Source: Acidisoma sp. PAMC 29798
Lineage (GTDB): Bacteria; Pseudomonadota; Alphaproteobacteria; Acetobacterales; Acetobacteraceae
Assembly: GCF_030252425.1 (NCBI RefSeq)
Contig: NZ_CP126994.1
Span: forward strand, 3,467,001-3,531,000
Reading direction: 5' to 3'
Length of the DNA: 64,000 nt
Shown: piece by piece, positions 13,290-27,265 of the stretch
How positions within the stretch are numbered: position 1 is the first letter of the stretch
How the letters are laid out: every line of letters starts with the position of its first letter
The notes under the pieces: model-generated
Database searches by the model: none
The model's input: only the letters and a program-made list of their open reading frames with translations
Told to the model about the DNA's origin: nothing
Made by a program: the position numbers and the translations under genes

Positions 13290-14270
13290 TTAGGCGTTGA
13301 GGAGCGTGACCTTGATGCAACGGTCGGCCTGCTTGCCGAGTTCAAAGGCTGCAACGGCATCTTCGAGTGCAAAACTATGGGTGCGGATCGGCGACAGATC
13401 GAGGCGGGTGCGTTCCAGGAAACGGATCGCGGCCGGCCAGACGCCCGGCGAACCGATACAGCCCATGACGGTGAGGTTGCGCATCTGGATATTCCCGAGA
13501 TGAGAGGAAACCTCACGACCGATATTGATGCCGATCATCGCCACGCGCCCTTCTTCCCGGACGAGATCGAAGACCACGCCGAGTGAGCGATCATGGCCGG
13601 CGGCTTCGATGACGAGATCGGCGCCTTTGCCGGTCAGTTCCATGACGCGTTCCACGGCGTTTTCCGTGGCGGGATCGATCACCGTATCCGCACCGAGTTT
13701 GAGAGCCGCCGCCCTGCGATGTGCGATGGGATCGATAACGATGACGCGCGCACCCATGCCTATGGCGGCGGCGGCCGAAACAAGGCCGATAGTGCCGCCG
13801 CCGGAGACGACGACCGTCTCACTCGCATTCGTGCCACCCAGGCGCTGGACGCCGTAGAAGCCGCAGGTGAAGGGCTCGATCAATGAGGCTGCCAGGTCAT
13901 CGATGCTATCGGGCAGCTTATGCAGCCATTCCGGTCGCACCGTGAAGAACTCGCGGTCGGCGCCGTCCAGGGAAAAGCCGAAGTGGTGGACCCGATCGGG
14001 GAGCCGCACGACGCATTCGCCGACCACCCTTTCCCCGACCGCGAAGCCGCGCACATCGCGACCCACGTCCACGATCTCACCGCACCACTCATGACCCGGC
14101 GTCACCGGGTAGGAAATGGGAATGATGTAGCGCCCACCGAGCAGTTCATAATCGGAGTGACAGATGCCGACGGCTTTCATGCGCACGAGAATTTCGTTCG
14201 GCGTGATCGTCGGCATATCGACGTCGCGCAACTCAGGCCGGTCGGGTGCCGCAAAACTAAGGGCCCTCAT
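13290..14270 (-). CDS. Medium-chain zinc-type alcohol/polyol dehydrogenase
   Basis: A 326-residue MDR enzyme of the sorbitol/threonine dehydrogenase group. The catalytic zinc ligands appear in GICHSDYE and PGHEWCGEIVDVG; the NAD-binding motif is VSGGGTIGLVSAAAAIG (about 158-174) followed by VIDP. The loop that usually carries four structural-zinc cysteines is replaced by a segment reading ECVVRLPDRVHHFGFS, so only the catalytic zinc is expected. The ATG overlaps the preceding stop by one base (TGATG), showing coupling with the Gfo/Idh gene. The substrate is probably a polyol or cyclic alcohol. Confidence 0.88.
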   Translation of the reverse strand: MRALSFAAPDRPELRDVDMPTITPNEILVRMKAVGICHSDYELLGGRYIIPISYPVTPGHEWCGEIVDVGRDVRGFAVGERVVGECVVRLPDRVHHFGFSLDGADREFFTVRPEWLHKLPDSIDDLAASLIEPFTCGFYGVQRLGGTNASETVVVSGGGTIGLVSAAAAIGMGARVIVIDPIAHRRAAALKLGADTVIDPATENAVERVMELTGKGADLVIEAAGHDRSLGVVFDLVREEGRVAMIGINIGREVSSHLGNIQMRNLTVMGCIGSPGVWPAAIRFLERTRLDLSPIRTHSFALEDAVAAFELGKQADRCIKVTLLNA

Positions 14271-15316
14271 CACACCGTCTCCTGCACGGTGATAGGGCCT
14301 CTCAGCACGACCTTTTCGACGGCTTCAACCTTGCCCGACTTGGCGGCACGCACGATCGTTTCCAGCAATGTGATATTCGCGATCATCTCCTCGCCCGTGA
14401 TGGGGTAGTCTGCAATCCCTGCCACGGCTCTGCCGAAGGCTTCGAGATTGGCGACCACCGCCTCGGATGGGCCGACCTCCGTCGTCACAATCGGACCGGA
14501 CACGTCGCCCTTGATGACAACCCAACCCTCCGGCGCCTCGACATGGGCTCGGTCGCGGATTTCGACCCAACCCTTGGTGCCATAAACCGCGAAACGGGAG
14601 ATGAAGGGCGTCGCCAAGGTCGCGGAGATATAGGCGGTGCCGCCGCCGATAAAACGGATATAGGCGCTCATCGTATCACCGGAGGGCAGGTCGGAGGCAA
14701 GGGTCTCGCAGGTGACCGTGACATCCGACGCCGCACCCATCAGGCGTATCGCGAGATCGGTGAGGTGGATGCCGGTCGCGGTCATGCCGCCGGCCGGCGC
14801 CTGGTCTGGCTTGAGACGCCAATTGGTGGGGTCGAGGCTGAGGAATTTGTCGTGGCTGAAATTCGCCTCGATCTGCAACAGACGGCCAAGTTTGCCGGCG
14901 GCGGCATCCGCAAGCAATTGCGCCATCGGCGGTTCGAAGCGCCGTTCATGCCCCATGCCAAGAACGAGACCTGCGTCGCGGCAGAGCGTCACGGCCTGTG
15001 CAGCACCCGCGCCCGTGAGGGCGAGCGGCTTTTCGCAGAAAACATGCTTGCCGGCCGCGACGGATTGGGCGATCTGCTGCTCGTGAAAGGCATGCGGTGT
15101 CGCGAGGATCACGGCATCGATATCGGGATCTGCGAGGGCCTCGGCCAGACTGTCGCCCAACGGCAGGTTGCGCGCCGCTGCAAACTCCCGCGCCGCATCG
15201 ATTGCCGGGTCAACGGCGCGGGTAATGCGAAGGACATCGCCATGCGCGGCCATGGTATCGACCATCTTCCGACCCCACCAACCGAGGCCAACAAGCGCAA
15301 CCTTTATGGTTGTCAT
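14270..15316 (-). CDS. Gfo/Idh/MocA-family oxidoreductase
   Basis: A 348-residue NAD(P)-dependent enzyme related to inositol and glucose dehydrogenases. The N-terminal Rossmann motif is VALVGLGWWGRKM, the central DAVILATPHAFHEQQI, and the family signature VFCEKPLAL lies at about residues 92-100. The C-terminal beta-sheet domain includes GGMTATGIHLTDLAIRLMG, with the catalytic-type His-x-x-Asp. This family oxidises or reduces sugars and cyclitols. In this operon it sits between a regulator-like fusion and a medium-chain dehydrogenase, so it likely works on a cyclic polyol or sugar precursor. Confidence 0.9.
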   Translation of the reverse strand: MTTIKVALVGLGWWGRKMVDTMAAHGDVLRITRAVDPAIDAAREFAAARNLPLGDSLAEALADPDIDAVILATPHAFHEQQIAQSVAAGKHVFCEKPLALTGAGAAQAVTLCRDAGLVLGMGHERRFEPPMAQLLADAAAGKLGRLLQIEANFSHDKFLSLDPTNWRLKPDQAPAGGMTATGIHLTDLAIRLMGAASDVTVTCETLASDLPSGDTMSAYIRFIGGGTAYISATLATPFISRFAVYGTKGWVEIRDRAHVEAPEGWVVIKGDVSGPIVTTEVGPSEAVVANLEAFGRAVAGIADYPITGEEMIANITLLETIVRAAKSGKVEAVEKVVLRGPITVQETV

Positions 15317-15337: not shown

Positions 15338-17038
15338 TTAGAGTCTTTCGAGGAGCGCCTCACGATTGGACGTGTAAAGCGCGTCAATGGCCTGTTGCGC
15401 TGCCAACAATGCCTCGACATCAGTTTTCCGGCCCGTCAGGGCATCATGAACCTCATCCCCTAGAATACGCTCGACAGCGGGGTATTCGGGAATTGGCGGC
15501 CGCTGCCACGTGTCGAGCAGATTGAGCTGTGCGACACGCTCGACAAAATGAACGATCGGCGAGCTTTGCTGCATTTCGGGATCGGACGCGAGGCTGAAAC
15601 GCGGCAGGATCGGAAATCCGCTTTTGACATGGCTTCTGACGGCATCAGGCGAGTGCATCCAGGCGATGGCATCCACCGCCGTTTGCACGCGTGAGCTCGG
15701 AAGATTGGCCGGTATCGCGAGCACGAACCCGCCCACAGGTGCTACGCTGGCGCCTTCAGGCCCTGCGGGATGCGGGAGGTAATCGACCTGCCTGCGCACA
15801 CGGGAACGCGTGTCGTATTCGAATCGCGTCGCCCGCATGCTCCAGCAGTAGGACATGGCGGCATGGCCATCTAAGAACGTCTCCAGACTCGATTCCCAAT
15901 CGAGTTCCGTCACATCAGGCGGAGAAATCTCAGTCAGTCGGTGCATATAATTGAGAACTCGCAGGCCCTGCTTGATAGGAACGATCGGTCTCGCTTCCGC
16001 ACCTTCGGCGCCGCGGCTGACGAGATAGGCGCCGCAGCAACTCAGAAAGAACAGAAAGCTTGACGCGATCGGCATGCCCCGCGCCGCATTCCAGGCAATG
16101 CCGTACCGCCCCAGCGCCGGCGCATGGAGGGAACGGCCGGCTGCGATGACTTCGTCGAAGGTCCTCGGCGCTTGCAGACCGGCGGCCTGAAACAGATCGC
16201 GGCGAATGGCCAGAGTCTCGATCGTGCAATAGATGGGCACACCGTATTGCTTTCCGTGCCATTGCCCGCCCGGCCAGAACTGGTGATGAAAATCATCGGG
16301 CTTGATGCCGGCGGTGGCGAGTTCTTCCCCAATCGGTCTGATGAGACCGCGGCTGGCGAATTCCCCAACCCAGGGAAAATTGACGGCGATGACATCGTAT
16401 TCGGAAACGGATCGCGCGGCATTGGCCATTGCCAGTCGATACAGTTGCGGCAGGCGCACCAGTTCGAAGTCGCGGCGGGATCCGAAACTCGTCCTTAGGT
16501 CGGACCACATGTTTTGCAGAGCGATGAAGTAATTGTCTTCCGCCATCAGGAAGCGTAGGTCCAGGCGGCGGCCCTGTTGTTGCAGCAACCTGAGGGGCGG
16601 CCCCATGATTTCGCCAGACGGCATCCCGCCGAAATAGTAGCTGTCCGCCTCCTCGGTCTTTTCGCGATTACCGAAGGTCCGGGCCAGCAGCCCCTTGACC
16701 TCCCGCATATAGGTTTCGAAGGCGGTCGTGAGCGTCGGGCTCGGCTCCAAGGCAAAAGACCGCCCGGTATTGCCGCGCGGAGTCTTCAGAATCAGGCCGG
16801 CGCCGATGAGTTCCTCCACCTTGCGTTGCGCCGTCGTGTAGGGTGCATAGCCGGCCTGGGCGAGAGCGGAAATCGTCACCACCTCGCCGCGCAGGGTGCC
16901 GCGAATGAGGTGATTGACGATACGCCAGACAAGTTCAGGATCGCCGTAGGGAAAGAGCGTCGTCCAAGGCGTGCGGATATGGTCGAGGAATTCCAGGATC
17001 CGGATTGTCTCCAGCGCGTTGGTGCGGGCGCGGCCCAT
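15338..17038 (-). CDS. Winged-helix DNA-binding domain fused to a sugar-type solute-binding domain
   Basis: A 566-residue protein with no signal peptide. Residues about 10-105 look like a winged helix: ILEFLDHI, then VTISALAQAGYAPYTTAQRKVEELIGAGLI with a basic wing TPRGNTGRSFAL. After a linker rich in arginine, residues about 155-560 resemble a family 1 extracellular solute-binding protein: AEDNYFIALQ, YDVIAVNFPWVGEFASRGLIRPI, FHHQFWPGGQWHGKQYGVPIY, FDEVIAAGRSL and a long alpha-helical C-terminus. SgrR of Escherichia coli is a known precedent for a helix-turn-helix fused to a (different, family 5) binding domain. I infer a cytoplasmic one-component sensor of the operon's substrate. It lies inside the operon, eight bases after the 3-HIB-dehydrogenase-like gene. 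Confidence 0.78.
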   Translation of the reverse strand: MGRARTNALETIRILEFLDHIRTPWTTLFPYGDPELVWRIVNHLIRGTLRGEVVTISALAQAGYAPYTTAQRKVEELIGAGLILKTPRGNTGRSFALEPSPTLTTAFETYMREVKGLLARTFGNREKTEEADSYYFGGMPSGEIMGPPLRLLQQQGRRLDLRFLMAEDNYFIALQNMWSDLRTSFGSRRDFELVRLPQLYRLAMANAARSVSEYDVIAVNFPWVGEFASRGLIRPIGEELATAGIKPDDFHHQFWPGGQWHGKQYGVPIYCTIETLAIRRDLFQAAGLQAPRTFDEVIAAGRSLHAPALGRYGIAWNAARGMPIASSFLFFLSCCGAYLVSRGAEGAEARPIVPIKQGLRVLNYMHRLTEISPPDVTELDWESSLETFLDGHAAMSYCWSMRATRFEYDTRSRVRRQVDYLPHPAGPEGASVAPVGGFVLAIPANLPSSRVQTAVDAIAWMHSPDAVRSHVKSGFPILPRFSLASDPEMQQSSPIVHFVERVAQLNLLDTWQRPPIPEYPAVERILGDEVHDALTGRKTDVEALLAAQQAIDALYTSNREALLERL

Positions 17039-17046
17039 CGCCTGTT

Positions 17047-17973
17047 TCAGTCGGCTGCTGAGGACAGTAAGGGGGCAGACAATCCGGCCGATGCCTCATA
17101 TTGCTCCAGCAATACAAAGAAGTCCTGTTCCCCCGCGCCCTGAGCATAGGCCGCTTCGTATTGTTGCCGGATCAAGGCCACGAGATAGACCGGGATATGC
17201 TGCATGCGCGCGGTGTCGAGGACGAGGTCGAAGTCCTTGATCATCTGCGTGACCGTGAAGGCGGGCGTGAAATCGCGGCGTGACAGCATGTCACGCTTAT
17301 AGGCGATGAGCGGGGACGCGACGGCGCTTTCGCCGATGACCTCCAGCATCTGCGCGATATCGAGATTGCCCTTGCGCCCGAAGGTCAATGCCTCCGCCAG
17401 GATCGCCGAGGTGGATCCCACAAGCATGTTGATGGCGAGCTTGAGATAGCGCGCCTCTTCGCCGGCGCCGAGATAGAAGCGGCGTGTGGAGAAAGCCTCC
17501 AGCAAAGGCTCAATGCGGCGATACGCCGCTTCCGGTCCCGAGGCGAGAACCGTGAGCTTGGCCGTGACCGCCGTCGCTGTGCTGCCGGAGATCGGCGCCC
17601 GCAGATACTCGACACCGGCACCCGTGAGCGCTTTGGCGACCTCTTCCGACATGGCGGGAGACACGGTGCTGGTCTCGACGATGATCTGTCCACGACGCAG
17701 GCTGGAGAGGATGCCCTGCGCGCCGAGGATCAGCCCGCTCAGCGCCGCATCATGGGGCATGGAGATGAAGATGATCTCCGCCGACTGCACTACATGGCGG
17801 GCCGAGGCCGCAATGGCGCCGCCTTCCGCCCCGGCCTGCAGCATCGCGCTCGCCATGGTGTCGAAAACATCGACAGCATGTCCGGCCTTGATGAGATGCA
17901 GGCACATCGGCGCGCCCATTTTCCCCAGGCCGATCCAGCCGAGGCGCGGGTTGTCCGCTCGCGCGTCGGTCAT
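17047..17973 (-). CDS. 3-hydroxyisobutyrate-dehydrogenase-like NAD-binding oxidoreductase
   Basis: A 308-residue beta-hydroxyacid dehydrogenase. The N-terminal Rossmann motif is LGWIGLGKMGAPMCLHL; the substrate loop reads RAPISGSTATA, close to the family's P-V-S-G signature; the catalytic lysine is in LKLAINMLVG (about 176-185). The C-terminal helical domain contains FTPAFTVTQMIKDFDLVLDTA. Related enzymes include tartronate semialdehyde reductase and 3-hydroxyisobutyrate dehydrogenase. It overlaps the dioxygenase gene by four bases, so it belongs to this catabolic operon, where it may act on a hydroxy-acid or side product. Confidence 0.88.
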   Translation of the reverse strand: MTDARADNPRLGWIGLGKMGAPMCLHLIKAGHAVDVFDTMASAMLQAGAEGGAIAASARHVVQSAEIIFISMPHDAALSGLILGAQGILSSLRRGQIIVETSTVSPAMSEEVAKALTGAGVEYLRAPISGSTATAVTAKLTVLASGPEAAYRRIEPLLEAFSTRRFYLGAGEEARYLKLAINMLVGSTSAILAEALTFGRKGNLDIAQMLEVIGESAVASPLIAYKRDMLSRRDFTPAFTVTQMIKDFDLVLDTARMQHIPVYLVALIRQQYEAAYAQGAGEQDFFVLLEQYEASAGLSAPLLSSAAD

Positions 17974-18872
17974 TCTTGCGGTCCTTGCGAAAGCGTTGCG
18001 GCTTCGTGCTGCAGCCGGATGTCGGTATCGAGATACTTGAACGGCGCCTGCATACCCCGCGCGGCGGCCCGTTCGGCATCGGTCGAGGTGAGAACGTCGC
18101 GAATCAGCGCCTCCTTGACGCCGAACACGGCGTCACTGCTGAGATAGGGGTCGCCCGCGAGGAAGACATGTGTCGTCAACGCGTCATAGCCCTGGGCCGA
18201 GACGATGAAGTGGATATGCGCCGGTCGCATGGGATGACGCCCCAAAGCCGCGAGCATCTTGCCCACCGGCCCATCATTCGGAATTGGATAGGACGCGGGA
18301 ACGATGGTGCGAAACCAGAAGTGTCCGTCCGCACCGGTGCGGAACACACCGCGCAGATTCATGTCCGGCTGGCTGGGATCCTGCGTATCGTAGAAACCAT
18401 CTTCCGACGTCTGCCAAATATCGAGGACCGCGCCTTCGATCGGCACGCCCCGCTCATCGAGCACGCGGCCTTCGACCAGCAGAGGCTCCCCACGACCGTC
18501 GAGGGAGATGGTGCCGCCCATGTCCATTTCGGGCGCACCATCGACATGGAAGGGGCCAAGAACGGTTGACGGTGTCACGTCATCGAGCTTGCGATTGTTG
18601 ATAGCATCGACGAGCATCGACACACCGAGCGTATCGGACAGCAGAATGAACTCCTGCCGCCGATCGCTGGAGATCTGGCCCGTGGCGGTGAGGAAGGCGA
18701 TGGCGGCCATCCATTCCGCCGATGTGAGATCAAGCTCGCGCACCACCGCATGCAGATGAGGCACCAGCACCGCCATAATCTGCGTGAGGCGAGGCAGCGA
18801 GCACGCCTCGTTGCGGCCGAGCACGATGTCGGTGGCGGTCTCTTCGGTAAAGTCGCGGTCGAGCGCTCTCAT
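17970..18872 (-). CDS. Hydroxyquinol 1,2-dioxygenase (intradiol type)
   Basis: A 300-residue non-heme iron enzyme that opens the ring of 1,2,4-trihydroxybenzene to maleylacetate. It has the N-terminal helical dimerisation domain (about 1-100) and then the intradiol fold: TPSTVLGPFHVDGAPEM, VLDIWQTSEDGFYDTQDPSQPDMNLRGVFRTGADGHFWFRT, SYPIPNDGPVG and HPMRPAHIHF. The two tyrosines and two histidines that bind iron(III) are all visible. Sequence length and the SYPIPNDGPVG segment fit hydroxyquinol rather than catechol dioxygenases, and the adjacent maleylacetate reductase gene agrees. It overlaps genes on both sides by four bases. Confidence 0.92.
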   Translation of the reverse strand: MRALDRDFTEETATDIVLGRNEACSLPRLTQIMAVLVPHLHAVVRELDLTSAEWMAAIAFLTATGQISSDRRQEFILLSDTLGVSMLVDAINNRKLDDVTPSTVLGPFHVDGAPEMDMGGTISLDGRGEPLLVEGRVLDERGVPIEGAVLDIWQTSEDGFYDTQDPSQPDMNLRGVFRTGADGHFWFRTIVPASYPIPNDGPVGKMLAALGRHPMRPAHIHFIVSAQGYDALTTHVFLAGDPYLSSDAVFGVKEALIRDVLTSTDAERAAARGMQAPFKYLDTDIRLQHEAATLSQGPQE

Positions 18873-19957
18873 GCGGCGACGCCCCGCTGGCTGACGGTAT
18901 GCGGACGCGTGCCATGAAAGGCATCGTCGAGCAAACCGCGAATGGCGCCGCGCTCCAGCGGCCTCGGATTGGGATAGGGCCGTGCGGTCGCGAGATCCGC
19001 CGCCCGATCGAGGTCGCTTTCCTTCATGCCGAGCTGTGCCAAAGTGATCGGCGCGCCGAGCGTATTCGCAAGATCGTAGAGGCCGCCTGCCGCGTCCGAT
19101 ACACCGAGGGCGCGTGCCACACGGCTCATCGCTTCCGGTGCAGCTGCGGCATTATAGGCCACCGCATGCGGCAGAATAACCGTATGGGTTTCGGCATGGG
19201 GAAGGCCGAAGGACCCGCCGAGCACATGGCAAAGCTTGTGATGCAGCGCCATGCCCACACTGCCGAGCACCACACCGCAAAGCCAGGCACCATACTGCGC
19301 CTTCGACCGCGCTTCGATGTCACGGGGGTTTTTGACGATGATGGGCAGAGCGCTTGCAAGAGCCGCGATCGCCTCTTCCGCCATCAGGGAGATGATCGGG
19401 TTGCCGGCCTCGGCATAGAGCCCTTCCACTGCATGGGCGATGGCGTTCATGCCACTCGTGGCACTGAGACTGACGGGAAGGCTCAGCGTCAGCGTGACGT
19501 CATACAGCGTCGTTTCGGGTAGAACCTTGAGGGTTCGCTGCGTGACCTTCTCGCCGTCGCGCGTTTCGCCGAGGATGGGCGTCATTTCCGAGCCCGCATA
19601 GGTGGTGGGAATGACGATCTGCGGCAGATCGGTGCGCAGGGCGATGGCCTTGCCGAGGCCGATGGTGGAGCCGCCACCGATTGAGACGACGCCATCGACC
19701 GCCGCCGACCGCACGAGTTCCAGGGCCGCTTCGGTCACGTCATTGGGCGTGTGCATCGTAGCCCGTGAAAACACCCCCACGCTCACCGAGCCGAGCAAGG
19801 CGGCGATGGTATTGGCCTGGGAAACCTGTTCGGGCGTTGACAGCACCAACGCCCGTTTCATGCCAAGCCGATCAGCTTCGGCGGCCACGTGCGAGACGGC
19901 ACCTTCCTCGAAGATGACGCGCATCGGTAGCGCCTCATAGGCGAACGGCCTGAACAT
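18869..19957 (-). CDS. Maleylacetate reductase
   Basis: A 362-residue iron-type alcohol-dehydrogenase family protein that reduces maleylacetate to 3-oxoadipate with NAD(P)H. Conserved segments are VSIGGGSTIGLGKAIAL, IPTTYAGSEMTPILGETRDGEKVT, GMNAIAHAVEGLYA, MALHHKLCHVLGGSFGLPHAETHTVILPHAVAYNAA and the C-terminal RPYPNPRPLERGAIRGLLDDAFHGTRP, which is specific to this reductase group. The ATG at 19957 has GGAGG at eight bases. It is the first gene of the leftward operon and divides a 217-base intergenic region with the rightward importer operon. Confidence 0.93.
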   Translation of the reverse strand: MFRPFAYEALPMRVIFEEGAVSHVAAEADRLGMKRALVLSTPEQVSQANTIAALLGSVSVGVFSRATMHTPNDVTEAALELVRSAAVDGVVSIGGGSTIGLGKAIALRTDLPQIVIPTTYAGSEMTPILGETRDGEKVTQRTLKVLPETTLYDVTLTLSLPVSLSATSGMNAIAHAVEGLYAEAGNPIISLMAEEAIAALASALPIIVKNPRDIEARSKAQYGAWLCGVVLGSVGMALHHKLCHVLGGSFGLPHAETHTVILPHAVAYNAAAAPEAMSRVARALGVSDAAGGLYDLANTLGAPITLAQLGMKESDLDRAADLATARPYPNPRPLERGAIRGLLDDAFHGTRPHTVSQRGVAA

Positions 19958-20073
19958 CGGTGCTTCCTCCAGCCCTTTATCGGTCAGTCTTGTTCGCGGT
20001 TGCACAATGGCGCCGCGTTCCAACTCTTACGCCAAGTCTACCCCCAGGCGCACCCATGGCGAGAGTCAAAATA

Positions 20074-20084
20074 TCCAAATTGGA
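20074..20084 (+). promoter_or_regulatory. Palindrome TCCAAATTGGA in the divergent promoter region
   Basis: An 11-base near-perfect palindrome in an AT-rich patch between maleylacetate reductase and the solute-binding protein gene. It is well placed to serve as an operator for both operons, perhaps for the winged-helix fusion protein; this is inference from position only. Confidence 0.35.
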
Positions 20085-20174
20085 CAAAATCGCAGTTTTC
20101 ATTTTCCGGGGGCTTCATACACTTGAATCAACAAGAACCAGCTGCATTGGATGGCTGGTAAAAGGGAGGACGTA

Positions 20175-21311
20175 ATGCGGAACAGCCTCAAGTCCGTGCT
20201 ATTTGGCATGGTTGCCTTAAGCACCCTCAGTGTGCCCGCTTTCGCCGATGGTTACACCGGCGCGCCGCGCACCATGCTCTTCAATCCGGCCCTGACGACC
20301 TGTCTGCGCGATACGGCGAAATACAAGAAAGCGCCGCCGTATACGATCGGCTTCTCGAATGCCGGCCTGGGTGACAGTTGGCGCGTCGTGATGCTCGATG
20401 AAATCAAGCAAGGTGCCGAGGATCACAAGGACAAGATTGCCAAACTGATCATCACCGATGCCGGGCATGATGACTCAAAGCAAGTGTCCGATGTGCAGGA
20501 CTTGGTGTCCCAGGGCGTCGATCTTCTCATCGTCAGCGCGAATACTGAAAAAGCGCTCGACCCCGTGGTGACGCGCGCCATGCGCAAGGGCATTCCGGTC
20601 ATCATGCTCGATCGCCGCATCTCCTCCGACAACTTCGTGACCTATGTGAACGCATCCGATCCGATGATGGGGCGGCTGTGGGCGCAGTGGATCGTGGAGA
20701 AGCTGCATGGCCACGGCAATATCGTGTTGCTCGGCGGCCAGGCAGGATCGAGCCCGAATGAGAATCGCATGGGCCCGGCGAAGGAAATCTTCGCCCAGTA
20801 TCCGGACATCCATATTCTCGACACAGTCTATTCCGATTGGAGCCCGGTGAAGGCCAAGCAGGTGATGCAGGCCGTCATTGCCAAATACGGCCACAAGATC
20901 GATGCGGTCTGGTCTGCGCATGGTTTGCAGGTTCCGGGCTCGATCGAGGCCTTTGTCGAAGCCGGTTTCAAGCCGGGTGAAATCCCGATGCATACCACCG
21001 CCGATATCAATGGCGCCTTGCAGGACGCCCTGAAATATCATGTGCCCATGCTGGAGATCGGCGACCCACCGGCCCAGGGCCGCCTCGCCATCGACGTGGC
21101 GATCAAGGTGCTGTCCGGCACGACCGTTCCTTGTGTGGTGACGGTGAATTCCCAGATCGGCCTGACAGATGGTGACGAAACACCCTCGGTTCACGCCGAT
21201 CGCGCGATCAAGGATATGGTGGTGCCGAACGGCCCGCCCGATCTGCTGATCACCAACGACCTCGGGCCAACCTACAACCCAGCGACAGCGCATATTCAGT
21301 ATCCGCACTAG
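20175..21311 (+). CDS. Ribose-type ABC transporter periplasmic binding protein
   Basis: A 378-residue protein with a signal peptide (about 1-24, ending VPAFADG) and the type I periplasmic-binding fold: YTIGFSNAGLGDSWRVVMLDEIKQGAED, VQDLVSQGVDLLIVSANTEKALDPVVTRAMRKGIPVIMLDRRI, GRLWAQWI and the C-terminal PMLEIGDPPAQGRLAIDVAIKVL. The ATG at 20175 has a strong GGGAGGA seven bases away; the open frame extends to 20151 but that part would break the signal peptide. It is longer than RbsB and has a C-terminal extension. It is the first gene of an import operon; the ligand is unknown. Confidence 0.92.
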   Translation: MRNSLKSVLFGMVALSTLSVPAFADGYTGAPRTMLFNPALTTCLRDTAKYKKAPPYTIGFSNAGLGDSWRVVMLDEIKQGAEDHKDKIAKLIITDAGHDDSKQVSDVQDLVSQGVDLLIVSANTEKALDPVVTRAMRKGIPVIMLDRRISSDNFVTYVNASDPMMGRLWAQWIVEKLHGHGNIVLLGGQAGSSPNENRMGPAKEIFAQYPDIHILDTVYSDWSPVKAKQVMQAVIAKYGHKIDAVWSAHGLQVPGSIEAFVEAGFKPGEIPMHTTADINGALQDALKYHVPMLEIGDPPAQGRLAIDVAIKVLSGTTVPCVVTVNSQIGLTDGDETPSVHADRAIKDMVVPNGPPDLLITNDLGPTYNPATAHIQYPH

Positions 21312-21326: not shown

Positions 21327-22801
21327 GTGCTCTCCGTCACCGGCATCAGCAAGCGTTTCCCTGGCGTCCAAGCGCTCTCCGATCTTTCGTTGGAGGTGGC
21401 CGCTGGGGAAATTCATGCCTTGGTTGGAGAGAACGGCGCCGGCAAATCGACCCTGACCAAGATCATCGCGGGGGTACAACCCCCCGATGAAGGCGAGATC
21501 AGGCTCGATGGTCGTGTTGTCAAATGGCGTGGGCCGGCGGATGCGAAGGTCGCCGGCATCCATGTCATCTACCAGGAATTCGTGTTGTTTCCGCACCTTA
21601 CGGTGGCGGAGAACATCTTTATCGGCCAAGCTCCACGCAGCCGGATCGGCTTTCTCGATGGGCGCCGCGCGGTCACCGCCGCGCGCGAGGTGCTCGGCCG
21701 CATGGGCGTTTCGATCGACCCACGACGCTTGATCGATAGCCTGACGGTGGCCGATCAGCAGATGGTCGAAATCGCCAAGGCGCTTGTCCATCGGCCAAAG
21801 GTTCTCATTCTCGATGAACCGACGGCGGTAATCGCAGGGCAGGAGGTGGTGCTGCTGTTCGAGCGGCTGCGCCGGCTGCGCGATGAAGGCGTCGCCATCA
21901 TCTACATCTCCCACCGATTGGAGGAGATATTCCAGCTCTGCGACCGGCTGACCGTGGTGAAGGATGGTCGCCTCGTCGGCAGCAAGCCAGTGTCCGAAGT
22001 GACGCGGCAAGACCTCATCACCATGATGGTCGGCCGCGATCTCAGCCATCTCTTTCCACCGAAGCTTTCGCCCACGGCGGCGCAGAGGGACGAGACGGAG
22101 GTTTTGAGCGCGGAGGGTATCGTTGTCGCACCGCGCGTGCGCGGCGCGGGCCTCAAGCTCCAGGCGGGCGTCATCACCGGCCTCGCGGGCCTTGTCGGCG
22201 CTGGCCGGTCCGAACTCGCCATGGCGATCTTTGGCGGCACGAAGATGGAAGCCGGGTCGGTTACGGTCGGCGGACGCACCTTCACCAGCATGACCCCGGC
22301 CATCGCCATCGCGATGGGCATCGGTTTCGTCACGGAAGATCGCAAGAGCGAAGGTCTCGCCATGCTTTTGGACGTCGGCGCCAATATCACCGCCTCGTCC
22401 CTCGATAGCCTCCGGCGTGGCCCTTTCCTTGACCGCGCAAAGGAAGCGGCGATGTCGGAGGAGGATATCGCCAATTACCGCATCGCCTGCCGTGGCCCGT
22501 CCAATCCCGTGGCGACAATGTCGGGCGGGCACGCACCTGCCACCGCGTTCTCATCCTGGATGAGCCGACGCGTGGCGTCGATGTGGGCGCACGCACGGAA
22601 ATCTATCGCATTATGCGCGACCTGGCGGCGCGTGGGATCGCCATCCTCATGATCAGTTCCGAATTGCCGGAAGTGATCGGCATGTCCGACCGAGTTTATG
22701 TCATGCGGGAGGGCCGGATCAGTGGCTTGCTCCAAGGCCAGGACATGACGGAGGAAGCAGTGATGGAACTTGCGACCCATCACGCCCTCGCGGCCGAATA
22801 A
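21327..22801 (+). pseudogene. Ribose-type ABC transporter ATPase gene with internal deletion and frameshift
   Basis: The first ABC domain is intact: Walker A GENGAGKSTLTK (about residues 36-47), the usual degenerate signature TVADQQMVEIAKAL and Walker [11 protein letters not shown]. The second domain runs normally to MSGG (ending near 22529). At that point about 31-34 bases are missing compared with the usual N-Q-Q-K-V-x-L-A-R-W-L stretch, and the rest, [23 protein letters not shown] to the end at 22801, is in another frame. The frame from the GTG at 21327 instead ends at 22652 with unrelated sequence. The GTG has GGGAGG upstream. The transporter is probably inactive unless another ATPase substitutes; an assembly error is the alternative. 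Confidence 0.8.
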
Positions 22802-22810
22802 GGAGGCGAT

Positions 22811-23788
22811 GTGAGCAACACGACCCAAACGGGCGGGACGCGGTTCGCGGCCCTGCGGCCATCCTCCCATACCGTTCGACTGGCCTTGGTGGTCTTGTTC
22901 ATCATCGTGCTCATTGTCGTGGGCTCGACCATCACGGACCGCTTTGCCCGTGGTGAGAACTTCCTCAATATCTATGAGCAATCCACCGATCTGGCTTTGG
23001 TCTCGCTTGGACAGACATTGACGATCCTGACCGGGGGCATCGATCTGTCCGTGGGTTCGATGATCAGCCTGCTGTCGACTCTGACATCGGGCCTGATCAA
23101 CAGTGACCAGTCGATGGTCTTGCCGGTCTGCGCCGGCATCATTCTGCTCGGCCTTGTCATCGGTGCCATCAACGGTCTTGGCGTCGTCTTCCTCAAAATC
23201 CATCCCCTGATCGTGACACTCGGCATGGGCGCGGTGTTGCAAGGCGCGGTCTTGCTCTATGCGCGTGGGCCGGCCGGCGGCACGCCGGATGGGTTCGATT
23301 TGCTGGCCTATGGCCGCGTTTATGACATATCGGTCGGCGCGACGATCACCATCGTGCTCTACCTCATCGTGGCAGTCTTGATGCGCAAGACAGCGACGGG
23401 CCGCGCCATCTATGCGGTGGGGGACGAGCCGGCTGCCGCCGTTCTTCTGGGCCTGCCCGTGCGGCGCGTGACGGTGCTGGTCTATGCCCTGTCGGGCTTC
23501 TTCTGCGCCCTGACGGCGATCTACCTTGTGTCGCGCTTCGGCACCGGCCAGCCCTATGCGGGCCAATATTACACGCTGCAATCGGTCACGCCCGTCGTGG
23601 TCGGTGGCACCTTGTTGAGCGGTGGGCGCGGTGGCGTCATCGGCACGCTGCTCGGTGCTTATCTTCTGGCCGTTCTGAACAATCTGTTGAACTTCATGCA
23701 TGTTTCGACGCAGATACAGCTCATCGCCCAAGGCCTGATCATCATGGCCGCCGTCTCTGCCTACGTCGAACGCAAGAAGGTGGCGTGA
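22811..23788 (+). CDS. Ribose-type ABC transporter permease
   Basis: A 325-residue inner-membrane permease with about eight to ten membrane helices. LVSLGQTLTILTGGIDLSVGSMISLLS and VVVGGTLLSGGRGGVIGTLLGAYLL are the family signatures of the RbsC/BPD-type 2 permeases. The GTG start has AAGGAGG six bases upstream, nine bases after the ATPase stop. It pairs with the next permease, giving a heterodimeric channel, unlike the homodimeric ribose permease. Confidence 0.9.
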   Translation: MSNTTQTGGTRFAALRPSSHTVRLALVVLFIIVLIVVGSTITDRFARGENFLNIYEQSTDLALVSLGQTLTILTGGIDLSVGSMISLLSTLTSGLINSDQSMVLPVCAGIILLGLVIGAINGLGVVFLKIHPLIVTLGMGAVLQGAVLLYARGPAGGTPDGFDLLAYGRVYDISVGATITIVLYLIVAVLMRKTATGRAIYAVGDEPAAAVLLGLPVRRVTVLVYALSGFFCALTAIYLVSRFGTGQPYAGQYYTLQSVTPVVVGGTLLSGGRGGVIGTLLGAYLLAVLNNLLNFMHVSTQIQLIAQGLIIMAAVSAYVERKKVA

Positions 23789-23790
23789 CG

Positions 23791-24765
23791 ATGGATCAGG
23801 TGCTGCCGACCACCACCCGGAATGCCGTTTCCAAACGCAATGGCGGGGAGCTTCGCGCCCTCGCCGGCCGTTGGGGCATCTATGTCTTCCTCGTGTTTTT
23901 CATCATTCTGGCCGGCATCCTCGCCCCGTCGTTTTTGCACCCGGATAATCTGTCCAATCTTGTCATCCAGCTTGTGCCGCTGGCGCTTGTGGCGGTTGGC
24001 CAGTCCCTGGTCATCTTGGTGCGCGGCCTTGATCTCTCCGTCTCCTCCGTCATGGCGACGGCGGCCGTGGTCGGCACCAGCTTCGCCGGTACGGCCCATC
24101 CCGAGCTTCCGACCATCGTCGTCGCCATCATCATCGGCGGCCTGACGGGCGTCGTGAACGGTTTGCTGGTCACCAAGCGCCAGGTCTCCCCCTTCCTTGC
24201 GACACTCGCGAGCATGATCGTGCTCCAGGGCCTGCGCTTCGCCTGGACGCATGGCGCGCCGACCGGCGCCATGCCGCCTTTCTTTCGCGTCATCGGCACC
24301 GGCCGCTGGCATGAACTGCCGGTCAACCTTCTGGTTCTGATCCCCATCGTGGTGATTGTCGGCATCGTCGTGCATCGCACGGTGCTTGGCCGGAAACTCT
24401 ATATCACCGGCGGCAATCCCGTAACGGCCCGTCTGCTGGGCTACAGGGTGACTAGCATCACCATCGGGGCCTATGTCGCGTCCGGCGTTCTCGCCGCCAT
24501 CGCGGGCCTCGTGCTGGGCGGCTATTCGGAGATCGTCGACAATTCGGTCGGCGAGGGCTTCGAGCTTGATAGCATCGTCGCCGCCGTCATCGGTGGTTTC
24601 GCGCTATCGGGCGGACGCGGCACCGTGCCCGGTGCGCTCGCGGGCGCGGCCGTGTTGGTCTTGGTGTCCAACATCGTGCTTCTTGTAGGGCTGCCGATCC
24701 AATTCCAGATCATCCTCAAGGGACTCGTCATCGTCCTGGCGGCCGCCTGCTATCGCACCCGATAG
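23791..24765 (+). CDS. Second ribose-type ABC transporter permease
   Basis: A permease of about 324 residues with the family motifs VAVGQSLVILVRGLDLSVSSVMA and VIGGFALSGGRGTVPGALAGAAVLV. Start choice: ATG at 23791 lies ten bases after AAGG; a GTG at 23785 would overlap the upstream stop by four bases but is only four bases from the same site. It forms the membrane channel with the preceding permease. The operon continues into metabolic genes after 27 bases. Confidence 0.9.
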   Translation: MDQVLPTTTRNAVSKRNGGELRALAGRWGIYVFLVFFIILAGILAPSFLHPDNLSNLVIQLVPLALVAVGQSLVILVRGLDLSVSSVMATAAVVGTSFAGTAHPELPTIVVAIIIGGLTGVVNGLLVTKRQVSPFLATLASMIVLQGLRFAWTHGAPTGAMPPFFRVIGTGRWHELPVNLLVLIPIVVIVGIVVHRTVLGRKLYITGGNPVTARLLGYRVTSITIGAYVASGVLAAIAGLVLGGYSEIVDNSVGEGFELDSIVAAVIGGFALSGGRGTVPGALAGAAVLVLVSNIVLLVGLPIQFQIILKGLVIVLAAACYRTR

Positions 24766-24792
24766 AACCATCGCATCGAAAGTAGTCTGACC

Positions 24793-25080
24793 ATGCATTT
24801 CATCATCCACTGCCTCGACTATCCGGGCGCGGTCGATCGCCGCTTGGCGCATTACGAGGCCCACAAGACCTATCTGTCGGCGCCGTCTGTGAAGATCGTC
24901 ATTTCCGGCCCTCTGCTCGCGCCGGGCACGGAGACGATGATCGGCAGCCTGTTCCTCGTCGAAGCCGAAACCATGGCGGAGGCTCAGGCCTTTCACGACA
25001 ACGACCCCTTCAAGGCCGCGAACATTTGGGAGAAGGTTTCGATCAATCCCTTCCTCAAGCGCATGGACAACCGCGACTAA
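24793..25080 (+). CDS. YciI family protein
   Basis: A 95-residue protein of the YciI/muconolactone-isomerase-like ferredoxin fold. MHFIIHCLDYPGAVDRRLAHYEAHKTYL, SGPLLAPGTETMIGSLFLVEAETMAEAQAFHDNDPF and a histidine-aspartate pair (H in AHYEAH, D in NDPF) match the family. Some members act on ring-cleavage products or on reactive intermediates; others have no known activity. Its place in an operon facing hydroxyquinol ring-cleavage genes is suggestive, but no function can be assigned. Confidence 0.85.
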   Translation: MHFIIHCLDYPGAVDRRLAHYEAHKTYLSAPSVKIVISGPLLAPGTETMIGSLFLVEAETMAEAQAFHDNDPFKAANIWEKVSINPFLKRMDNRD

Positions 25081-25107
25081 GCCTGGCTGCAATCGGAGAT
25101 CACCATC

Positions 25108-26172
25108 ATGCGCGCCGTTCGCTTCTACGATAAACGGGACATCCGGGTTGAAGAGGTCGCCGATCCCGCCGAGCCGGGTGACGATCAGGTCCTGGTCGCG
25201 CCCTTGCTCTGCGGCATTTGCGGCACCGATCTGCACGAGTATATCGCCGGTCCCATCGTCACGCCGAAAACGCCAAACAGCCTGACCGGGGCCGTGCTGC
25301 CGCAGATCCTCGGCCACGAATTTTCGGCCCGCGTGCTGAAGGTCGGCAAGGCCGTCACCAACCTCAAGCCCGGCGACCGTGTCTCCATCCAGCCTCTCAT
25401 GGCGCCGGTGGATGACTATTTCGCCAAGCGCGGGCTGATCCATCTCAGTGACCGGCTCGGCGTCGTTGGCCTGTCATGGGCCTGGGGCGGCTTGGGGCAG
25501 ATGGCGATCGTCGATGCCATCAACGCCATTCCGGTGCCCGACAGCCTGACCGATGCGCAGGCCGCCCTGATCGAGCCGGCGGCCGTCGCGGTTTATGCGG
25601 TGGATCGCGGGCGCGTGGCGGCTGGTTCCTCAGTGCTCGTCTCCGGCGCCGGGCCGATCGGTGCCTTGACGCTGCTCGCCGCGCGCGCGGCTGGTGCCAG
25701 CGTCTTGTTCGTGGCCGAGACGAATGCCAAGCGCCTGGCCAAGGCGCAGGAGATCGTGCCCGGCGTCATCGCCGTTAATCCGAAAGAGCAGGATGTCGCG
25801 GCCTTCGTGCGCAGCCGCACGGAAGAAGGCATCGGCGTTGATACCGCCATCGAATGCGTCGGCAACGAAGCGTCCCTCAATGCCTGTGTCGATGCCGTGC
25901 GCCGCCAGGGCGTGGTGGTTCAGGCCGGACTGCATATCAAGGCGGCTTCGGTGACGCCGATGACCTGGGCGCTGAAGGATATCAGTATCGAGGCCACCTG
26001 GTGCTATCCGGTGCAGAGTTGGTCGCGCATCGCGCGCATGATCGCGGCCGGCATCTTCCCGGTCGAGCGTGTGGTGACGGCGACGATCGATGCCGAGGAT
26101 GTGGTGCAGGGCGGGTTCGAGGCGCTGCTCGATCCACAGGGCCAGCACCTCAAGATTCTCGTCCGACCCTAG
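25108..26172 (+). CDS. Medium-chain zinc-type dehydrogenase, butanediol-dehydrogenase-like
   Basis: A 354-residue MDR enzyme. Catalytic-zinc ligands lie in LLCGICGTDLHEY and ILGHEFSARV, with EPAAVAVYAV as the third position; the NAD motif is VLVSGAGPIGALTLLAARAAG (about 172-192). FIxGPI-like sequence IAGPIVTPKTPNSLTGAVLPQILGHE is typical of 2,3-butanediol dehydrogenases. The structural-zinc loop is present in length but all four cysteines are missing (PLMAPVDDYFAKRG). It likely oxidises a vicinal diol or polyol. Confidence 0.88.
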   Translation: MRAVRFYDKRDIRVEEVADPAEPGDDQVLVAPLLCGICGTDLHEYIAGPIVTPKTPNSLTGAVLPQILGHEFSARVLKVGKAVTNLKPGDRVSIQPLMAPVDDYFAKRGLIHLSDRLGVVGLSWAWGGLGQMAIVDAINAIPVPDSLTDAQAALIEPAAVAVYAVDRGRVAAGSSVLVSGAGPIGALTLLAARAAGASVLFVAETNAKRLAKAQEIVPGVIAVNPKEQDVAAFVRSRTEEGIGVDTAIECVGNEASLNACVDAVRRQGVVVQAGLHIKAASVTPMTWALKDISIEATWCYPVQSWSRIARMIAAGIFPVERVVTATIDAEDVVQGGFEALLDPQGQHLKILVRP

Positions 26173-26200
26173 ACCTTCGCCTCATAAAAGGAGTTTTGCT

Positions 26201-27265
26201 ATGGACCGAACAGCGCTCGTTGTCGGGGCAAGCGGCATTGTCGGCAATAATCTTGCCCGTCACCTGCTGGACAAGGGCTGGGCGGTGCATGGCCTGGCGC
26301 GCCGGCCGCCCAAGGACATCCCTGGCCTTCAGCCTGTAGCGGCCGATCTGCTCGACCCGTCGTCGCTGGAGACTGCATTGGCGGGCCTCACGGTGACCGA
26401 TGTTTTCATTGCCACCTGGATGCGGCAGCCGACCGAGGCCGAGAACATCAAGGTCAATGCTGGAATGGTGCGGAACCTTCTCACCGCCACCGCGCGCAGC
26501 GGATCGGTGCGGCATGTCGGTCTCGTCACCGGCCTCAAGCACTATCTCGGGCCATTCGAGGCTTACGGCAAAGGTGTTCTGCCAGCCACGCCGTTCCGTG
26601 AGGAGCAGTCACGGCTGGATATCGAGAACTTCTACTACGCGCAGGAGGATGAGGTCTTCGCCGCCGCTGCGCGGGACGGCTTTGGCTGGAGCATCCATCG
26701 CCCCCACACCATCATTGGCTATGCCATCGGCAATGCCATGAACATGGGCGTGACCCTTGCGACCTATGCTACCATCTGCCGCGAAACGGGTCGGCCCTTC
26801 GTGTTTCCCGGCTCCGCGATGCAGTGGAACAGCCTGACGGACATGACGGATGCGCGCGTTCTCGCGCGACAGCTCGAATGGGCGGCGACTACCGAAGCCG
26901 CGCATAATCAGGCCTTCAACATCGTCAATGGAGACGTCTTCCGCTGGAAGTGGATGTGGTCCCGGATCGCCGAATGGTTTGGACTCGAGGCCGCGCCTTT
27001 TCCGAATGATCTGTCACCGCTGGAAGATCAGCTCTCGGATGCGGCGCCGATCTGGGCGGGGATAGCCCAAAAGTATGGCCTGGCGGAGCCCGATCTGAAC
27101 GTCTTGGCGTCTGCATGGCATACCGACGCCGATCTCGGCCGCCCGATCGAGGTCGTGACGGATATGGCGAAAAGCCGGAAGCTCGGCTTCCTCGACTATC
27201 AACCGACGGATGACAGCTTCTTCTCGTTGTTCGATCATCTGCGGGCCAATCGCATCATCCCGTGA
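26201..27265 (+). CDS. PRISE-type SDR (progesterone 5-beta-reductase/iridoid-synthase-like)
   Basis: A 354-residue extended/atypical SDR. ALVVGASGIVGNNLARHLL binds NADPH, followed by LARRPP; FIATWMRQPTEAENIKVNAGMVRNLL, the conserved KHYLGPFEAYG (with lysine), PFREEQSRLDIENFYYAQED and WSIHRPHTIIGYAIGNAMNMG fit the PRISE family, and WKWMWSRIAEWFGLE is a family hallmark. These enzymes reduce activated C=C bonds of enones. The ATG at 26201 has AAAAGGAG eight bases away. In the operon it may reduce an unsaturated ketone intermediate made by the dehydrogenases. Confidence 0.85.
   Translation: MDRTALVVGASGIVGNNLARHLLDKGWAVHGLARRPPKDIPGLQPVAADLLDPSSLETALAGLTVTDVFIATWMRQPTEAENIKVNAGMVRNLLTATARSGSVRHVGLVTGLKHYLGPFEAYGKGVLPATPFREEQSRLDIENFYYAQEDEVFAAAARDGFGWSIHRPHTIIGYAIGNAMNMGVTLATYATICRETGRPFVFPGSAMQWNSLTDMTDARVLARQLEWAATTEAAHNQAFNIVNGDVFRWKWMWSRIAEWFGLEAAPFPNDLSPLEDQLSDAAPIWAGIAQKYGLAEPDLNVLASAWHTDADLGRPIEVVTDMAKSRKLGFLDYQPTDDSFFSLFDHLRANRIIP

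Follow-up and report, generated by a model that had tools for sequence, protein, structure and literature searches.

A sugar-type solute-binding domain behind a MarR-like winged helix: a predicted cytosolic regulator annotated as an extracellular protein in Acidisoma sp. PAMC 29798 and its relatives

SgrR (E. coli) and DsvR (V. cholerae) are regulators in which a helix-turn-helix is combined with a family-5 binding domain, SBP_bac_5 (PMC13060122; PMC4021124). The protein considered here, encoded in a 64-kb stretch of the genome of Acidisoma sp. PAMC 29798 (the window), resembles them in the joining of an N-terminal helix-turn-helix to a full solute-binding protein (SBP) domain and in its connection with the regulation of carbon metabolism. 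It differs from them in that its SBP domain belongs to family 1 (the sugar type), its N domain is MarR-like, and its gene, unlike theirs, adjoins an importer and a catabolic operon. In a Pfam scan extended to E=10, only SBP_bac_1, SBP_bac_8 and MarR_2 are matched, and SgrR_N and SBP_bac_5 are absent; the earlier note, too, treated SgrR as a different design with a family-5 binding domain. This HTH-SBP protein would work like SgrR, but it is not a member of the SgrR family. The description "unusual regulator class", given in the earlier note, is fair as far as it goes, but the class is not unique, since SgrR and DsvR share the general pairing (PMC13060122).

The conversion of a binding protein into a sensor is a known evolutionary route, because LysR, LacI and Btr exemplify it. 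LacI has a sensor of the type-I fold and LysR of a short type-II fold, and the DNA-binding domains of both differ from that of the HTH-SBP protein. Btr of B. subtilis is an AraC-type regulator with a siderophore-binding SBP domain; it is similar to the HTH-SBP protein in having a cytosolic SBP-like domain that senses an imported substrate, and it differs in the DNA-binding family and in the SBP class. The likeness of LacI/GalR and LysR regulators consists in sensors related to periplasmic binding proteins, the companion domain of LysR being of the PBP II type (PMC5882156); neither the LacI helix-turn-helix nor a Peripla_BP sensor is matched in the HTH-SBP protein by the Pfam scan. No earlier description of a regulator combining SBP_bac_1 with a helix-turn-helix was found in open-licence PMC papers. 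The features of the locus are collected in Table 1.

Table 1. Features of the HTH-SBP locus, in positions of the window.
Feature	Position	Strand	Basis or remark
HTH-SBP regulator gene	15338..17038	minus	ATG start, 566 aa; full-length homologues
MarR-like winged-helix domain, residues 1-125	16664..17038	minus	AlphaFold model, structural matches
Linker, residues 126-156	16571..16663	minus	pLDDT 44-57 over most of 121-160, low confidence
Family-1 (SBP_bac_1) solute-binding domain, residues 157-559	15362..16570	minus	Pfam and 5iai match
Predicted operator ATATCCAAATTGGACAA, 17-bp palindrome	20071..20087	unstranded	Divergent promoter region of the catabolic and importer operons
Maleylacetate reductase-like Fe-ADH, leading gene of the operon	18869..19957	minus	Probable ATG at 19957; homologues annotated as maleylacetate reductase
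Intradiol ring-cleavage dioxygenase, catechol/hydroxyquinol 1,2-dioxygenase type	17970..18872	minus	Elsewhere paired with maleylacetate reductase
HIBADH-type NAD-dependent reductase, immediately preceding the regulator gene	17047..17973	minus	Operon partner at several other loci
Gfo/Idh/MocA oxidoreductase, downstream of the regulator	14270..15316	minus	
Zinc-type dehydrogenase (MDR), downstream of the regulator	13290..14273	minus	
Exported RbsB-type (Peripla_BP_4) binding protein, divergent CUT2 importer	20151..21311	plus	Pfam E=3.9e-53
RbsA-type ABC ATPase, apparently frameshifted	21327..22795	plus	Intact frame ends at 22652
Two RbsC-type permeases	22811..24765	plus	

Because VIA-align on the full-length model returned SBP folds only, a separate model of the N domain was built and used for the structural searches. 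In the AlphaFold model built with 27 relatives (pLDDT 86.1, pTM 0.79), the winged-helix fold proper occupies residues 8-122. Helices at 8-28, 36-49 and 56-62 are followed by a recognition helix at 67-79, wing strands at 83-87 and 95-99, and a dimer-type helix at 101-122, so that the topology is helix-helix-helix-recognition helix-strand-wing-strand-helix, the MarR order. Foldseek matches the domain almost exclusively to MarR proteins (probability 1.0, with weak E-values of ~2e-3). VIA-align matches it to DNA-bound MepR (Z 9.1) and TubR (Z 8.8, rmsd 2.3 Å over 81 residues), as well as to the winged-helix DNA-binding proteins AspA and CzrA, with MarR proteins at Z 7.5-9.1; identity in these structural matches is 10-20%, and a Z of ~9 is typical of a small common fold. 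A profile of the domain run against solved structures hits TubR (E=6e-4) and MarR chains (E=0.009); from this search a match to the designed PPR protein 5i9d was rejected as a repeat artefact. The HTH-SBP protein itself matches Pfam MarR_2 at E=0.031 in the Pfam scan, and its best MarR/MarR_2 value is E=0.0031, where 18.1 bits lie below the gathering cut-off of 27; MarR_2 is matched individually by 21 of 27 members (best family member, E 1.5e-5). Residues T69, R72 and P99 are invariant in the 27-sequence set, and strong matches to the N-domain profile, found among 60 relatives, are confined to the HTH-SBP family. Thus the winged-helix-like domain anticipated at the N terminus is recovered in the predicted structure and its structural matches: the first ~120 residues fold as a DNA-binding type.

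Regulators of the MarR family (MepR, HpaR, HcaR) share with the HTH-SBP protein this predicted fold and topology, including the long N- and C-terminal dimer helices seen in the model, and short palindromic operators. They are proteins of ~150 aa that bind the ligand within a small winged-helix dimer, whereas the HTH-SBP protein has 566 aa with an SBP domain of 400 residues and lacks the final helix of the MarR fold. The stand-alone form of ~150 aa was not found, the SBP domain being present in all relatives.

Pfam SBP_bac_1 is matched at residues 205-466 (E=4.9e-20) and by all 37 family members. Among solved structures, 5iai is the nearest in sequence (E=1.8e-32; 24% identity across the SBP domain). 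In the full-length AlphaFold model (pLDDT 80.3), residues 154-555 superimpose on 5iai by VIA-align with Z 42.4 and rmsd 2.5 Å over 393 aligned residues, the TM-score of the domain being 0.89 by target length. The fold of the periplasmic sugar type, described earlier as full, is therefore complete.

An alternative is a regulator whose SBP domain has lost ligand binding and serves only as a platform for dimerisation or protein interaction. The domain could have been retained as a scaffold, but W223, W316, R279, D281, E407 and G436-G437 are invariant or nearly so in the family, and a set of aromatic, charged and glycine residues conserved in this way fits a retained binding site as judged from the sequences. 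Loss of binding is consequently an unlikely explanation, and a ligand-binding sensor is the preferred one.

The search for the same layout in other genomes, proposed together with the original observation, yields full-length two-domain relatives. In the survey sample of Pseudomonadota genomes and plasmid records they occur in 12 of the 397 genomes of the order, in seven more genomes of the class sample and in others of the phylum sample, mainly in Alphaproteobacteria. Relatives at ≥80% query cover are also carried by 34 plasmid records (Rhizobium, Phaeobacter, Shinella, Skermanella, Paraburkholderia and others). Among full-length homologues of 82 to 25% identity, conservation spans residues from ~2-10 to ~555; the two-domain layout is common to 36 homologues, which make 37 members with the window protein. 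The SBP parts of the family form one clade with support of 0.98 against a small outgroup of nine exported SBPs.

The placement of the gene within a catabolic operon is confirmed by its neighbours. The operon begins with the gene for the maleylacetate reductase-like Fe-ADH, followed by those for the intradiol dioxygenase and the HIBADH-type reductase; after the HTH-SBP gene come the Gfo/Idh/MocA oxidoreductase, the zinc-type dehydrogenase and finally two SDRs. This operon diverges from an importer operon of the RbsB/RbsA/RbsC type (CUT2). The frame of the RbsA-type ATPase is lost near 22540-22560, where the signature stretch after MSGG is absent and the C-terminal part is found in a different frame, which means a broken importer in this strain or an error in the assembly. 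Beside the importer (24765-27265) lie genes for a YciI-like small protein (64% match) and a PRISE-like reductase (26090-27265), both recurrent in many homologue clusters.

Three types of cluster surround the family. The first, with dioxygenase and maleylacetate reductase as in the window, is found in Acetobacteraceae, Rhizobium and Aminobacter; the second, in Rhodobacterales, contains a Xaa-Pro-peptidase-like protein and a 2-oxoacid dehydrogenase complex; the third is of the inositol-dehydrogenase type. A recurrent, mostly Rhodobacterales cluster with a CUT2 importer and SDRs is seen at nine loci (L042, L043, L046, L049, L050, L064, L066, L067 and L071), often with genes for a ThuA-like protein, a Xaa-Pro-peptidase-like protein and 2-oxoacid dehydrogenase, to which annotated loci add succinate-semialdehyde dehydrogenase.

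A CUT2 ATPase or permease lies nearby in 32 of the 37 locus rows, usually with an exported RbsB-type SBP and often divergent from the HTH-SBP gene. Since the neighbouring CUT2 importer usually has its own RbsB-type receptor, the SBP domain of the HTH-SBP protein is not needed for import. A complete adjacent CUT1 importer is found at L045 and L047 only, each with its own SBP gene, and among the 37 locus rows there is no adjacent CUT1 permease without another SBP that could be cognate to the family. Because the neighbouring importers, including those of the CUT1 type, have their own SBPs, no transporter remains for the family-1 domain.

These data bear on the alternative that follows the annotation: an ordinary exported SBP that serves an ABC importer and merely has an odd extension at its N terminus. 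It is favoured by the complete fold and by the database name, since nearly every annotated record, plasmid records included, is called "extracellular solute-binding protein". It is hardly credible against the importers equipped with receptors of their own and the conserved N domain with its winged-helix fold in the model. An N-terminal hydrophobic segment is absent from 37 of 37 members by simple hydropathy of translations from likely starts, but present by hydropathy in exported family-1 paralogues of the same genome. The lack of a signal peptide, first remarked for the window protein, thus extends to 36 homologues. The earlier note had named two outcomes that would speak against its reading, an N terminus without a DNA-binding fold and homologues with export signals; neither was found. 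The importer SBPs of family 1 (5iai Arad_9887, SmoF and MalE types) share the fold, and the HTH-SBP protein differs from them in the missing export signal, the missing permease of its own and the winged helix in front. By these feature tests it is neither an ordinary MarR regulator nor an exported SBP. According to the model and the sequences, the protein that annotation routinely makes a secreted sugar-binding protein almost certainly acts in the cytosol as a gene switch, and the family appears to represent a transport receptor turned into a sensor. The misannotation is systematic, and the proteins are likely tallied as transport in genome surveys.

The region 19958-20174, suggested earlier as the target of the regulator, contains a palindrome that is conserved in the loci of distant homologues. 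It was found by alignment of the divergent promoter region of seven Acetobacteraceae, in all of which it is conserved; its consensus is TTRTCCAAATTGGAYAA. The window site scores 28.3 of 28.8 bits and is the sole site in 64 kb at three or fewer mismatches (two rows for one site; 0.11 rows expected). Its symmetry appears only at the true centre (0.67 versus ≤0.40 elsewhere). In an eighth genome, which belongs to the same genus and was left out of the training, a site of 27.7 bits lies at the same position, and a degenerate pattern search gave nine sites in 5 Mb, the window site being the strongest among the stretches rescored. No sigma-70 promoter was detected when the intergenic region was scanned.

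The 17-bp matrix trained on the seven Acetobacteraceae sites was applied to held-out loci, a strong site being one of at least 17 bits. Strong sites are present in 24 of 29 held-out homologue loci, a count in which loci inside one clade are not independent. They are lacking at L002, L040, L041, L045 and L048; L040 and L048 have divergent N domains, which does not account for the other three. Within 500 bp upstream of the transcription unit of the regulator, the best site beats shuffled sequences (p≤0.01) in 20 of the 29 held-out loci, and at six loci pairs of sites are spaced by exactly 21 bp, or two helical turns. No strong site occurs in 20 Acetobacteraceae dioxygenase clusters without the HTH-SBP gene (best 4.2-16.8 bits), nor near 26 distant RbsB homologues in shorter loci that also lack it; what these controls have in common with the family loci is the dioxygenase or an RbsB, in most cases a distant one (~30%), rather than the whole cluster. 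The difference between the held-out loci and the dioxygenase controls, in GC-rich loci, is significant by the Mann-Whitney test (p=8e-8). Locus L175 (G090:C72:1-12000) has no regulator and no operator near its orthologous, broken RbsB (73%; best scores 4.7 and 6.0 bits). Its RbsB and RbsA are decayed, each split between frames, and adjoin Xaa-Pro-peptidase-like and 2-oxoacid dehydrogenase E1 genes, as in the Rhodobacterales version of the cluster.

The palindrome could instead belong to another regulator, for instance of the GntR/FCD or LacI type, with the HTH-SBP protein acting elsewhere or not on DNA. FCD proteins do occur near some relatives, and an FCD-type GntR gene beside a second intradiol dioxygenase has a 25.2-bit match (L123:8328; G000:C1:3342327-3342343) 77 bp upstream. 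This match was considered as a second target in the same genome and dropped, the site being lacking in three sister genomes. The site tracks the HTH-SBP gene amid differing enzymes and is absent from clusters without the gene, which makes ownership by such a regulator very unlikely. The palindrome is most simply assigned to the HTH-SBP protein, because the enzymes differ by cluster type and no other regulator gene is common to the loci. It is conceivable, though, that the site belongs to a further regulator which is unlinked but constantly accompanies the HTH-SBP gene.

With both folds, the absence of an export signal, the single-clade layout, the linkage to separate importers and the palindrome following the gene obtained by computation, the protein is very probably a cytosolic one-component regulator, in which, to judge from model and sequence, the MarR-like head would sit on the predicted operator and the SBP domain would sense a cytosolic ligand. 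The MarR-like domain could dimerise through its long first and last helices, and the dimer would bind the 17-bp palindrome in the promoter region common to the catabolic operon and the divergent CUT2 importer operon. The SBP domain would close on a small cytosolic ligand resembling a sugar, polyol or cyclitol, either the imported substrate or an early intermediate, a ligand class suggested by the SBP relatives and the neighbouring dehydrogenases. Direct sensing of the imported substrate, which the earlier note had in view, would be one of these two options. Closure would alter DNA binding and so control both the importer and the catabolic operon.

The sign of this control is predicted with less assurance. 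Relief of repression by the ligand would be the likelier mode, because some loci hold the site shortly before the start of the regulator itself (24-33 bp before its start codon at L052, L069 and L070), a position typical of repression; in addition, MarR-type domains are mostly repressors. The same architecture and operator could serve a ligand-dependent activator, for which the window site is far enough upstream, its centre being ~96 bp away from where RbsB starts and ~122 bp from the start of the maleylacetate reductase, and with which the tandem sites 21 bp apart at several loci agree. Activation is a sizeable possibility, although the start-proximal sites and the general habit of MarR-type domains speak against it, and repression relieved by the ligand is retained as the preferred mode.

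The HTH-SBP proteins probably constitute an undescribed monophyletic class, Alphaproteobacteria-wide, in which a sugar-type SBP would have been captured once by a MarR-like winged helix and would read, in the cytosol and via a conserved operator, the substrate of an unrelated CUT2 importer, the class being hidden by its annotation. Recognition of the class corrects the systematic misannotation of the family, and the predicted operator predicts its regulons. The fusion would be a ready-made scaffold for sugar biosensors. The family also gives a handle on uncharacterised catabolic clusters, in which a ring-cleaving dioxygenase and maleylacetate reductase are joined to sugar- or cyclitol-type dehydrogenases. 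The family suggests that an import receptor has, once more and independently, become a gene switch, and the sugar chemistry of its sensor fold is well understood.
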